DNA of 30,796 bases, taken from positions 1 to 30,796 of IMG/VR virus record IMGVR_UViG_3300032309_001359; one strand, 5' to 3'. Every line of letters starts with the position of its first letter. The first letter of the stretch is position 1. The notes under the pieces were generated by a model. It was given only the letters and a program-made list of their open reading frames with translations. It had not been told where the DNA came from and did not search any database. The DNA is from a virus. Below, piece after piece: positions 14,087 through 21,860 of this stretch. Made by a program: the position numbers and the translations under genes.

Positions 14087-14440
14087 ATGAGCCAGGTAAA
14101 GATCAAGCGGTTGTTTCGGGTGGTCGAAGCCACCGTCACCACTGCCACCAGCAGCAGCACCACGCTTCGCATGGATGACATGGCTGGCGCCGTGGTCGAA
14201 CTGCCCACGATCACCACGAACGCTGCCACCATCAACGTGTGGGGCAACGACACCGAATCGGGTTCGTTCTGCCAGCTGTACGACGCAAGTGGCTCAGCGG
14301 CCTCCATTACGCTTGCCCCCAGCACCAGCAATCGGACGGCGTATGCCCTGCCAGATGCGGCTTTTGCGTTCCCGTACGTGAAGCTGGTGGCTGCTAGCAC
14401 CAATGCCACGGCCACGGTCAACGTGGTCATGAAGTCTTAG
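14087..14440 (+). CDS. putative small structural protein, beta-rich, 117 aa
   Basis: The sequence is dominated by Thr, Ser, Ala and Val in alternating strands (VEATVTTATSSSTTLRM, ATINVWGNDTESGSF, VKLVAASTNATATVNVVMKS), as expected for a small beta-sandwich decoration or fibre-associated protein. It is reminiscent in composition of the accessory head protein at 20575, although I cannot align them convincingly. It has the Shine-Dalgarno GGAGAG at 14074-14079. Its stop TAG overlaps the GTG start of the HNH gene at 14440. Confidence 0.5.
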   Translation: MSQVKIKRLFRVVEATVTTATSSSTTLRMDDMAGAVVELPTITTNAATINVWGNDTESGSFCQLYDASGSAASITLAPSTSNRTAYALPDAAFAFPYVKLVAASTNATATVNVVMKS

Positions 14441-14775
14441 TGCCCAACCGCATCCCAGCCCATCAGCCGCTGCGTCTGCGTGCCTCACGCCCGAGGCGGG
14501 ATGACAGTACACGCCCCAATGCCGCGTCCCGTGGGTACTGCAACAAGGCCCACCGGGCTTGGAGGCAAGCGGTGCTGACGCGCGACGCTTGGACGTGCAG
14601 GCATTGCGGCCGCGTGTGCAGCGATAAGAGGGAGGCTCAGGCCGATCACGTGTTGGCCATCAGCCAGGGCGGGGCGCGCTACGACGTGGCCAATGGGCAA
14701 GTGCTTTGTATTGCTTGCCACGCACGGAAGACGTTGCGGGAGCGGCGCGACGCCGGGGCGGTCAAAAAACTATAG
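14440..14775 (+). CDS. HNH endonuclease, 111 aa
   Basis: GTG 14440 overlaps the preceding stop by one base. The C-terminal half has the HNH core: CRHCGRVC zinc knuckle, QADHVLAISQGGARYDVANGQVL, then CIACHARKT. In HK97-like and P27-terminase phages a gene of this type stands just before the terminase, and its product takes part in cutting concatemeric DNA during packaging. The position here fits that role exactly. The first 45 residues are basic and Pro-rich. The domain call is strong; the role in packaging follows from the family and the neighbourhood. Confidence 0.9.
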   Translation: MPNRIPAHQPLRLRASRPRRDDSTRPNAASRGYCNKAHRAWRQAVLTRDAWTCRHCGRVCSDKREAQADHVLAISQGGARYDVANGQVLCIACHARKTLRERRDAGAVKKL

Positions 14776-14817
14776 AAGGCAGCCTTAATAAAACCCCACG
14801 GTTTCCTCGCGCGTGCG

Positions 14818-14843
14818 CGGCGCAGGAATTCGACGCCGTTTTT
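14818..14843 (+). terminator. weak Rho-independent terminator candidate
   Basis: CGGCG (14818-14822) and CGCCG (14834-14838) form a 5-bp GC stem with an 11-base loop, followed directly by TTTTT (14839-14843). The short stem makes it weak. It lies between the HNH and small terminase genes, so it may only attenuate. Confidence 0.3.
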
Positions 14844-14857
14844 CCAGGACATTTCTG

Positions 14858-15319
14858 ATGGGCCGCAAACCCAAGCCAACCGCCATCAAAATTCTTGAAG
14901 GCACGCAGCGTGGCCCGGCCAAGCGTGAGCCGTCGGCGCCGCCCGGCGCACCCGAGATGCCCGAGCGTCTTTCGGTTGAGCCGTTGGCCGTGGCCAAGTG
15001 GCACGAACTTGTTGACATCTTGTCGAAGATGGGCGTGCTGACCACGGGCGACGGCGAGGCGCTCGCCACGCTGTGCGAGGTGTACGCAGCCGCGCAAGCG
15101 TGCTTGCTGGAGCTGCGTGCGAGCGGGCCGACGATCAAAACGGATCTTGGTGGTGTCAAGCCAAATCCGGCCGGCAGTTTGTATCGCGGCCTGGTGGTAT
15201 TGCAGGCCAACTTGATGGGCGAGTTTGGATTGACGCCCAGTAGCAGGGTGCGACTTGGGACGAAAGCCGAAGCCCCGAAAGACGATCTCGAAGCGTTCTT
15301 CGCAGCCGAAGGCGCGTGA
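14858..15319 (+). CDS. terminase small subunit, P27 family, 153 aa
   Basis: ATG 14858 begins with GRKPKPTAIKILEGTQRGPAK, the signature N-terminus of the P27 small terminase family (PF05119). The helical middle (ALATLCEVYAAAQACLLEL) and the LYRGLVVLQANLMGEFGLTPSSRVRL segment are also typical. The small subunit recognises phage DNA and loads the large ATPase/nuclease subunit. It overlaps the large subunit reading frame by about 65 bases if that gene starts at TTG 15255. Length is normal. Confidence 0.9.
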   Translation: MGRKPKPTAIKILEGTQRGPAKREPSAPPGAPEMPERLSVEPLAVAKWHELVDILSKMGVLTTGDGEALATLCEVYAAAQACLLELRASGPTIKTDLGGVKPNPAGSLYRGLVVLQANLMGEFGLTPSSRVRLGTKAEAPKDDLEAFFAAEGA

Positions 15320-16921
15320 TCTGACGCCGGAAGGCGAAGCCAAGTACCGCCGCGTGGTGCGATTCTTTGAGGGTGTTTTGCGACACTCAAAAGGCCAGCA
15401 CGCCGGGGAGCCGTTTTCTTTGTTGCCGTGGCAGCACGAAGTTTTCAAAGAGTTGTTTGGGCGACTGCGGCCAGACGGCACAAGGCAGCACCGAGTGGCC
15501 TACATTGAGGTGCCCAAAAAAAATGGCGTCTTGGCCCCTGCGGCTGGTTGCCGTGGGGGCCAAGGCGACAAGGCAAATCAACTCTACTGGCGGGGATCGC
15601 CATCTACATGCTGCTGGCCGACGGCGAGCAAGGCAGCGAAGTCTACGGGGCATGCACGGATCGTGAGTCTGCGGGCATCATCTACCGCGAAGCCGCCGCT
15701 ATGGTGCGGGCCTCGCCGGCTCTGTCCAAAGTGCTGGAAGTGGTGGACAGCCGGAAGACGATCATCCACCGGGCCAGCAACTCGTTCTATCGTGTGCTCT
15801 CGGCAGATGCGTTCCGTGCCGAGGGGCTGAATATTCACGCCCTGCTTTTCGATGAGATGCACGCCCAGCGTGATCGTCGGCTCTATGACGCCCTGCGCTA
15901 CGGCGGTGCGGCACGGCGGCAGCCGCTGCTGCTGTCGATCACCACAGCCGGCGAGCTGGACCGCAAGGCGCTCTGGTGGGAGCAACGGACGTATGCCGAG
16001 CGGTGTGCCGCAGATCCGACGCTCGACCCGGCTTTTTACGGCTGCGTCTACAAGGCCGAAGAAGCGGATGACCCGTTTGACGAGGCGACGTGGCGGAAGG
16101 CCAACCCGTCACTGGGGCACACGATCACGCTGGAGTCGTTTGCCGCCGATGCCTTGGAAGCGAAGAACAGCCCCAGCAAACTCAACTCGTTTTTGCGTTA
16201 CCGGCTCGACATCGCCACCAGCTCTGACGTGCGGTGGATTCTGCCTGACAAGTGGGCTGCCTGTGGCGGTGCGTTGCGTCCGCTCGACGGCCGCCAGGCG
16301 TACGTCGGCCTGGACTTGTCGAGCACCACGGACTTGACGTGTGCCGTGTACCTGTTTCCCGATGAGGACGGCACCTTCGACGTGCTGCCGTTCTTCTGGG
16401 CGGCAGCCGAGAACGCCCAAGGCCGAGCACACCGGGACAAGGTGCCTTATCTGGATTGGGCCAAGGAGCGTAACGAGTACGGCCCGCTGTTGCGGCTCAC
16501 CGATGGCAACGCCACGGACTACGACACGGTGCGGCGGGACATCAACGAAATCAGCAAGAGATTCGTGATTCGGCAGATGGGGATAGATCCCTGGAACGCC
16601 CAGCACATATCGCAGCAACTGCAAGGAGATGGGTTTGAAATAGTAGCGTTTAGGCAGGGATACGGCAGTTTCTCAAGCCCCTGCAAATTCTTGGAGACGC
16701 TCACGCTTTCCGGCCGGCTGCGGCACGCCAATCACCCGATGCTGTCGTGGATGGCAAACAACGTGTCGATTGAGATGAACCACGCCGGCGACATTAAGCC
16801 AAGCAAAAGCAAATCCACGGAACGCATCGACGGCATGGTGGCGTTGGTCGAAGCCCTTGGCCTGTGGCAAACGGCGACGGCGCCAAAGCCTGAACAAAAC
16901 TGGGACATCGTGGCCATATGA
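15255..16921 (+). CDS. terminase large subunit, reading frame interrupted in Walker A (recoding or frameshift)
   Basis: The ATPase-nuclease motor of packaging. The first part (frame from TTG 15255; start uncertain) contains DLTPEGEAKYRRVVRFFEG, FSLLPWQHEVFKELFG and VAYIEVPKKNG, which stops halfway through the P-loop. The same protein resumes in the -1 frame with GKSTLLAGIAIYMLLADG, Walker B LLFDEMHA, and nuclease motifs GLDLSSTTD, IDPWN and ERIDGMVA, ending at 16921. Without recoding, frame 0 ends at 15830 as a useless 191-residue product. A -1 shift at the A8 run gives 555 residues; skipping 15528-15574 gives 539. Both suit the family. A sequencing error or true pseudogene is possible, but every motif downstream is intact. 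It overlaps the portal by ATGA at 16918. Confidence 0.85.
15507..15574 (+). promoter_or_regulatory. candidate translational recoding element inside the terminase Walker A codons
   Basis: The elements in order are: SD-like GAGG (15507-15510); A8 run (15516-15523) containing the in-frame heptamer A AAA AAT; GGC codon (15525-15527); then a hairpin whose arms pair continuously from 15527-15544 to 15550-15567, 18 pairs including three G-U, with the five-base loop TGGTT. GGC (15572-15574) closes the 47-base segment before AAA TCA (Lys-Ser). A -1 shift reads GPRRQGKST; a bypass from GGC to GGC reads VPKKNGKST. The frame -1 stop nearest upstream is TGA 15506-15508, just before the element. Confidence 0.6.
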
Positions 16922-21089: not shown

Positions 21090-21860
21090 GTGAAAGTCAG
21101 AATCGGCAACGTCGAGCACGATCTGCGAGTCGAGGCCGCATTCTCGGTGCCTCGGCTCGGGTTCATGGACAACTTCTTCTGCGTGATGCAGTCGCTGATG
21201 CCGCTGGGCATTCGCCCCACAAAATTTACCGGGGCATTTTGGGAACAATGCTTGGACCGCGTCCTGCTGGACATCGTGGACCGCACGGATTGGATTCTCA
21301 CGTGCGATTACGACAGCGCGTTTGAGGCCGACACGGTGCAGCGGCTGATGACGGCGGCGCTGATCTCGGGGTATGACGCCGTGGCGCCGCTGCAGACGAA
21401 GCGGGACGATGGCGTGCCGATGTTCACGCCCGAGGGGCACGACGGCACCATCGGCCTGGTGCAGCTGCCCAACACGTGGTTTGAGGCTGTGATCCAGCCC
21501 GTGGCGACGGCTCATTTCGGGTGCACGCTGATCCGCAGCGAAGCGCTTAAGAAGACAAAGGCCCCGTGGTTCTTGGGCACGCCCAGGCCCGATGGGCACT
21601 GGGGTGACGCCCCAGAGGGCGAAAAGACACGCATTGACCCCGATATCCACTTCTGGAAGGCGTTCCGCGCCGCCGGCAACAAGCTGGGCATTGCCCCGCA
21701 GGTGGCGATTGGGCACGCCGAGCTGAAGCTGACGTGGCCGGGCCGGGATCTGAAGCCCGTCTATCAGTCGCCTGCCGACTACTGGAACAAGGGCGGGAAA
21801 CGGCCTGCCGATGCCTGGGGATCAATCGAACACGGGGAGGCCAGCTGTGCCACGACCTGA
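21090..21860 (+). CDS. glycosyltransferase-like (GT-A) protein in the head gene cluster, 256 aa
   Basis: Starts at GTG 21090. An N-terminal beta-alpha unit (FSVPRLGFMDNFFCVMQSL) is followed by DWILTCDYDSAFEADTVQRLM, with DYDS in the place of the D-x-D metal site. Then come YDAVAPLQTKRDD and AHFGCTLIRSEALKK, which resemble the acceptor side of GT2-type enzymes (often FG..L.RR). DPDIHFWKAFRAAGNKLGIAPQVAIGH completes a GT-A core. A sugar transferase between capsid and connector genes suggests virion glycosylation, but this is inference. It is unrelated at sequence level to the glycosyltransferase at 7056 as far as I can judge. Confidence 0.65.
   Translation: MKVRIGNVEHDLRVEAAFSVPRLGFMDNFFCVMQSLMPLGIRPTKFTGAFWEQCLDRVLLDIVDRTDWILTCDYDSAFEADTVQRLMTAALISGYDAVAPLQTKRDDGVPMFTPEGHDGTIGLVQLPNTWFEAVIQPVATAHFGCTLIRSEALKKTKAPWFLGTPRPDGHWGDAPEGEKTRIDPDIHFWKAFRAAGNKLGIAPQVAIGHAELKLTWPGRDLKPVYQSPADYWNKGGKRPADAWGSIEHGEASCATT

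Follow-up and report, generated by a model that had tools for sequence, protein, structure and literature searches.

The DNA analyzed here, referred to as the window, comprises the 30,796 bases at positions 1 to 30,796 of the IMG/VR virus record IMGVR_UViG_3300032309_001359. On its plus strand, the gene for the terminase small subunit, terS (14813–15319; Terminase_4, Pfam PF05119, E 3.5e-17; PHROG 83), is directly preceded on the 5' side by an HNH endonuclease gene (14440–14775, plus strand; Pfam PF01844, E 1.7e-8). Many contigs (L002, L005, L006, L007, L011, L013, L015 and others) share an end near window position 14806, between the HNH gene and terS and 722 nt 5' of the KST codon, which is possibly the physical end of the packaged genome, i.e., a cos site. 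The large subunit gene, terL, is carried in two parts on the same strand. The 5' part (15255–15527), whose N-terminus is unbroken in uninserted relatives, is read in frame 0, with TTG 15255 as the likely start in a frame open from 15234, and its C-terminal end reads ...RVAYIEVPKKNG. Frame 0 stays open past the insert until 15830, and the TerL frame picks up at 15575, where the 3' part (15575–16921) starts again as KSTLLAGIAIYMLLA... and encodes the rest of the ATPase together with the nuclease (Pfam TerL_ATPase, 1.4e-18; TerL_nuclease, 1.6e-42).

The two parts are separated by an insert of exactly 47 nt (15528–15574), which lies between the Gly and Lys residues of the terminase P-loop (VPKKNG|KST). 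Upstream of it, CCC (15513–15515) precedes a run of eight adenines (A8; 15516–15523, the AAA AAA AA of the KKN codons), which is part of the element's conserved 5' flank, followed by the glycine codon GGC (15525–15527), the putative take-off codon. The third base of this codon is also the first base of a hairpin stem, such that a stem-loop holds the take-off codon. The 5' arm (15527–15544), the loop TGGTT (15545–15549) and the 3' arm (15550–15567) are followed by the spacer ACAA (15568–15571), by a second GGC (15572–15574) that would serve as the landing codon and is counted within the gap, and by AAA (Lys) at 15575, the first codon after landing; all of these features are on the plus strand. 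The initial annotation had described a 47-base segment splitting the P-loop and nearly filled by an 18-pair hairpin with a five-base loop; its sequence and coordinates were as described, the insertion is exact with respect to uninserted homologues, and RNA folding reproduced the stem (15527–15544 with 15550–15567, 5-nt loop, −46.6 kcal/mol over 91 nt, z = −5.3 relative to shuffles). However, the GAGG that it pointed out upstream consists of ordinary codons of conserved IEV residues that occur in most uninserted TerLs, and it is missing from L177–L181; thus, its candidacy as a Shine–Dalgarno stimulator was rejected. An Rfam search of the window returned no match, hence no group I, group II or other catalogued RNA family.

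A protein scan of IMG/VR yielded 52 loci, mostly with 90–98% TerL identity. In the close relatives with a readable junction, NGG is followed by AAR with zero gap, typically as AAGAAGAACGGC|AAG, the exceptions being L017 and L018, whose insert is identical to that of the window. In the alignment with close homologues that the initial annotation had proposed as a check, the segment is missing in uninserted relatives and varies among inserted ones. An exact half of the hairpin was found in 11 other contigs, always in terL and at the same site, in another TerL lineage. Three family scans, based on A8 plus the hairpin, on the flanking codons only, and on the hairpin plus KST only, gave 52 contigs with the element (the window counted), corresponding to 34 distinct inserts. 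While one scan pattern demanded A8, the flank-only scan demanded neither A8 nor the hairpin, and the matches listed from it have the hairpin and nearly all have A8 too. At distinct PKKNG sites, A8 is present in 29/30 inserted and 4/36 uninserted cases (Fisher p 5e-13, a value that ignores kinship, the counts being of sequences rather than events). Identical copies of the insert occur across independent metagenomes (L129/L133/L135/L139 and L130/L134/L137), which makes assembly error unlikely, and an assembly artefact was ruled out on this basis. Chance is likewise ruled out, since dozens of contigs of independent metagenomic origin have the same insert at the same junction and uninserted relatives lack it.

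The stem is maintained by compensatory change. Across the 34 distinct P-loop sequences (alignment A2), 98.0% of the stem cells hold standard pairs, and 7 of the 18 pairs show double-sided replacements, such as G-C to C-G and U-A to C-G; the covariation score was reached by 0/500 shuffles, and slid versions were only 41–53% paired. The loop, which contains a stop codon in other copies, and the spacer, which differs in both length and sequence, vary freely, while G-U pairs are kept in the stem. Since a DNA palindrome would not favour G-U pairs, their retention points to a stem that acts at the RNA level.

The codons at the two edges of the gap are also matched. The take-off codon at the P-loop is GGC, GGT or GGG in 30/34 copies and AAT in the remaining four (L178–L181), in which the hairpin keeps its register but is displaced by one codon towards the 5' end of the gene. 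At the landing position, GGN is found in 29 of the 30 GGN-type copies and AAC in 4/4 of the AAT type, and the first two bases of the landing and take-off codons are the same in 33/34 distinct P-loop copies. L160 shows the mismatch GGC to TGC. At every matching site the match is in phase with the codons, which is beyond what target-site duplication or splicing would require.

Inserts with the same plan, all of 50–51 nt, occur at three more TerL sites, at one site before the P-loop and at one site in a second gene. The additional TerL sites are AEGL(CTG)|NIH and FDEL(CTG)|HAQ, both with landing codon CTG, and RRLW(TGG)|DAL (site 4), with landing codon AGA; the site before the P-loop is VP(CCG)|KKNGK, with landing codon CCG. 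The second gene, a relative of window 21090–21860 whose downstream part belongs to PHROG 1574, bears the insert at FW(TGG)|SQ (site 5; L269, L279 and L280) with landing codon TGG, and the predicted hop product gives a gap-free alignment of 249 aa (82%) with the uninserted homologue in L283. Thus, take-off and landing codons match at 4/5 of these other sites (CTG, CTG, CCG and TGG). The site-4 mismatch, TGG to AGA, is found in three contigs (L271, L282 and L266). Stops lie in the loop or are absent in the P-loop copies, and sites 3 and 5 have TGA one codon later. The upstream peptides differ by site (RVAYIEVPKKNG, DAFRAEGL, LLFDEL and GTGAFW). Bypassing in T4 gene 60 needs a nascent-peptide signal; no shared signal of this KKYK-like type was seen across the sites, nor was a Shine–Dalgarno sequence seen at the landing site. 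With no common nascent peptide apparent, the hairpin may suffice.

A covariance model trained on the P-loop copies only (R1) ranked the copies from the other sites near the top of its untrained matches, at E values of 0.12–0.57. Common descent of the other-site elements with the P-loop type is therefore likely rather than proven, as R1 finds them only weakly. Taken together, the inserts of about 50 bases, which related phages carry at seven positions distributed over two genes, look, from their sequences, like one family. One terL (L044/L266; IMGVR 3300032271_000795) has two 50-nt hairpin inserts, at AEGL|NIH and RRLW|DAL, and an empty P-loop. Besides L044 and L253, a de novo hairpin scan of the retrieved loci returned mostly chance hairpins. 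A further candidate, a difference of about 50 nt in the gene beside the L171 portal, was rejected as an element, being a deletion in L171: relative to about 40 other contigs, a small portal-adjacent gene (about 9.6–10.1 kb, minus strand) has lost about 50 nt with a change of frame and is probably broken.

The distribution of the inserts bears the marks of horizontal movement. On a FastTree phylogeny of TerL, the insert state switches 11 times, 10 of these being forced by well-supported branches, and the window and L157 stand alone among uninserted relatives. Over 14.0–18.0 kb, the window is about 95% identical to its nearest uninserted relative, L056, except in an island at 15377–15675, in which 67/251 positions differ (73% identity) and the insert is situated mid-island. 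The island statistic (LOD 53) was reached by 0/200 block shuffles, and uninserted control pairs show no comparable identity dip; L153 displays a weaker dip, and the remaining pairs are too diverged to tell. The island is a gene-conversion footprint, the insert having come in with 100–150 nt of flank per side. In three uninserted TerLs (L229, L230 and L240), the A8 flank occurs together with AAATCG, and these may represent vacated or pre-insertion (empty) sites. The features that would mark a mobile byp were all found, namely occupancy of several sites and genes, absence from close relatives, and horizontal acquisition as seen in the island and the 11 state changes; the suggestion that the packaging gene harbours a mobile element of the byp kind is strongly supported by the comparative evidence.

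How terL is expressed across the gap can be judged from the family as a whole. Gap lengths at the P-loop (n = 34) are 46 (4), 47 (10), 48 (7), 49 (3), 50 (6) and 51 nt (4), which fill all three residues modulo 3, and 11/11 inserts divisible by three contain an in-frame stop within or near the loop. A −1 shift would make 12/34 copies readable, a +1 shift 3/34 and in-frame reading 0/34, while 19/34 are beyond the reach of any 0, −1 or +1 shift. The window by itself cannot separate a hop from a frameshift because its −1 frame is open (WRLGPCGWLPWGPRRQGKST), with no stop in the gap. Programmed −1 frameshifting at A_AAA_AAT, stimulated by the hairpin and yielding a TerL into which 16 residues are inserted and whose P-loop is rebuilt as GPRRQGKST, would account for the slippery-type heptamer kept in nearly all GGN-type copies and for the absence of stops from this frame in the window and in 12/34 copies. 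It is nonetheless quite unlikely, as it would leave the copies with gaps divisible by three out of frame, and it is confronted by −1-frame stops in L130, L146, L155 and L169, by L168 without the A8 run and by L178–L181 without a slippery site; moreover, the −1 peptide is not conserved, and the hairpin begins only 2 nt past the heptamer, which is tight spacing for a frameshift stimulator. A dnaX-type arrangement, with a constant −1 relation and an open −1 frame across members, was not found. Fixed frameshifting thus fails for the family, given gap lengths of every class, the in-frame stops and the 19 unreachable copies, and −1 shifting was rejected as the family mechanism. Between the two models that the initial annotation had left side by side, the hop is strongly supported by the comparative evidence, whereas the −1 shift is unsupported for the family. 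Its argument that P[KR][KR][NQ]G encoded on both sides of the insert is hard to explain by chance did not hold; the resemblance is a coincidence, the 3' arm in other copies translating as PRRPSG, PRRHQG, PR*SG, PRFPW and more, with stops in several −1 frames. It is extremely improbable that the terminase is split into an N-terminal piece and a downstream piece started in the loop (TTG 15548): the window loop does offer a TTG start followed by the P-loop-like GPRRQGKST; however, in L130, L140, L146 and L156 the start is missing or is then followed by stops, and the P-loop residues downstream of the loop start are not conserved. An internal start was therefore rejected. The dN/dS ratio in both gene halves is 0–0.33, mostly <0.15, across inserted–inserted and inserted–uninserted pairs, and for the window it is 0.10–0.14 in the 5' part against L054, L108 and L157 and 0.06–0.08 in the 3' part. 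These values rule out a pseudogene, and they are difficult to reconcile with the view that a DNA palindrome has merely disrupted terL in phages that are defective or relics, with no need for readthrough. Such DNA inserts and is lost by recombination, and L229, L230 and L240 resemble empty sites with the element's flanks; nevertheless, the strong purifying selection on both halves in many lineages, the compensatory stem changes with G-U pairs retained, and the long persistence and diversification of the family within an essential gene render this explanation very unlikely.

Since both halves are under purifying selection, the joined protein must be made, and a hop or RNA removal is the sole solution common to all copies. 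In the latter case, the hairpin would be cut from the mRNA as a mini-intron, through endonuclease cleavage at the stem and subsequent ligation, and the message would be translated in the ordinary manner. Such excision would give the same protein every time and tolerate any gap length and any stop within the gap, and the covarying stem with G-U pairs does point to RNA. However, no bacterial intron as small as the 47-nt insert is known, the Rfam search gave no match, and excision predicts neither the in-phase codon match at both ends of nearly all sites nor the replacement of GGN/GGN by AAT/AAC when the insertion point moves by one codon, so that we consider it unlikely. The 47 bases are, with high probability on the comparative sequence evidence, a translational bypass element belonging to a mobile family of 46–51-nt hairpins in related phages. 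Under translational bypassing, the ribosome would read terL in frame 0 up to the Gly codon GGC (15525–15527) and stall at the very stable hairpin, the base of which takes in the take-off codon; the peptidyl-tRNA would then detach, slide across the gap and re-pair at the matching GGC (15572–15574), and translation would restart at AAA (Lys, 15575) to produce the unbroken P-loop VPKKNG-KST. The element would have arrived in the window phage with about 100–150 flanking bases on each side, as in gene conversion or homing. We infer that the gap is skipped by the ribosome rather than removed from the RNA, with the hairpin as the driver of take-off and an endonuclease as the driver of the conversion.

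Several features recall bypassing in T4 gene 60, in which a non-coding gap of 50 nt (46–51 nt here) lies between two ORFs, out of frame with each other or separated by a stop, that code one protein, the take-off and landing codons are matched Gly codons, and the take-off codon lies inside a stem-loop. Additionally, many copies have a stop near the gap start, the insert is missing from relatives, and hypotheses on the origin of the T4 gap invoke a homing endonuclease (PMC5009743, PMC3014915, PMC11194080). In T4, sliding across the 50-nt gap succeeds about 50% of the time, and processivity is lost above 56 nt (PMC11194080); the narrow 46–51 nt range observed here is in line with this. In contrast to gene 60, a single stem of about 18 bp nearly fills the gap, the stops are in the loop and do not adjoin the take-off codon, no nascent-peptide signal is conserved across sites, and there are many members at several sites in two genes with visible horizontal movement. 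The mitochondrial byps of Magnusiomyces capitatus are likewise short inserts skipped in translation at many sites (81 places), with a take-off/landing match that is sometimes imperfect (PMC5009743); the present elements differ in residing in DNA phages of bacteria, with bacterial ribosomes, in their long GC-rich covarying hairpin and in their preference for conserved sites within a single essential protein. For a terminase, the closest earlier proposal, as cited in PMC5009743, is the bypassing suggested at a UUA in the terminase gene of Streptomyces phage Hau3 and a prophage, although that citation concerns a rare codon and possible host regulation, with no hairpin family. LAGLIDADG inteins of terminases (e.g., in mycobacteriophage; PMC5050341) also occupy the P-loop and spread by homing, but they are removed at the protein level, measure about 350 aa and encode their own endonuclease.

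Intein-type protein inserts are also present among the retrieved loci. In L249 (519–1814), L253 (1460–2497) and L051 (1659–2997) they end at TerL GK|ST, 3 nt from the hairpin-insert site, and LAGLIDADG or homing-endonuclease domains match in the L249 and L253 inserts. In L253, the intein is accompanied by a hairpin insert, a bypass-like hairpin of the CCG type (1425–1475; take-off CCG, landing CCG) located just 5' of the intein. For T4, the 50-nt gap of gene 60 has been proposed to protect against a homing nuclease (PMC5009743), and mobA is located near gene 60 (PMC3014915). By analogy, we infer that the hairpin inserts would make terL resistant to intein homing. The fuller proposal, that mobile elements of about 50 nt carry their own take-off hairpin, are neutralised by the hop, spread by conversion at intein homing sites and act as immune alleles against inteins, appears to us evenly poised between right and wrong.

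The element-bearing phages probably infect Planctomycetota, as the closest TerLs in bacterial genomes come from Planctomycetota MAGs (Phycisphaerales UBA4658, 72–74% to L179; Pirellulales, 62% to L177). A first pattern scan of bacterial chromosomes found no copies, and pattern scans of 392 Planctomycetota genomes found no element, the only hits being L285, a stretch without a hairpin in an ordinary sulfatase-like ORF, and L284, an unrelated sequence; both were rejected. Cultured phages gave no DNA match, with a best TerL identity of about 44%, and no such phage family was found described in the open-access journal full texts searched.

In the main review, the known bypassing cases comprise gene 60 of phage T4, the byps of Magnusiomyces mitochondria and a small number of candidates that await proof, and the inserts described here look like a new family of mobile skipped sequences that resembles the long-solitary T4 case. 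Dozens of natural variants in bacterial viruses would allow the rules of bypassing, i.e., the hairpin, codon match, gap length and spacer, to be read comparatively, and these rules would be testable in ordinary E. coli reporters. Because the inserts adjoin an intein homing site, the family might bear on the origin of the T4 case, and more such genes may hide in metagenomes since ORF callers split them. Bypassing would be one route for inserted DNA to turn harmless and spread, and the elements, if this is true, would be 'introns' whose remover is the ribosome.
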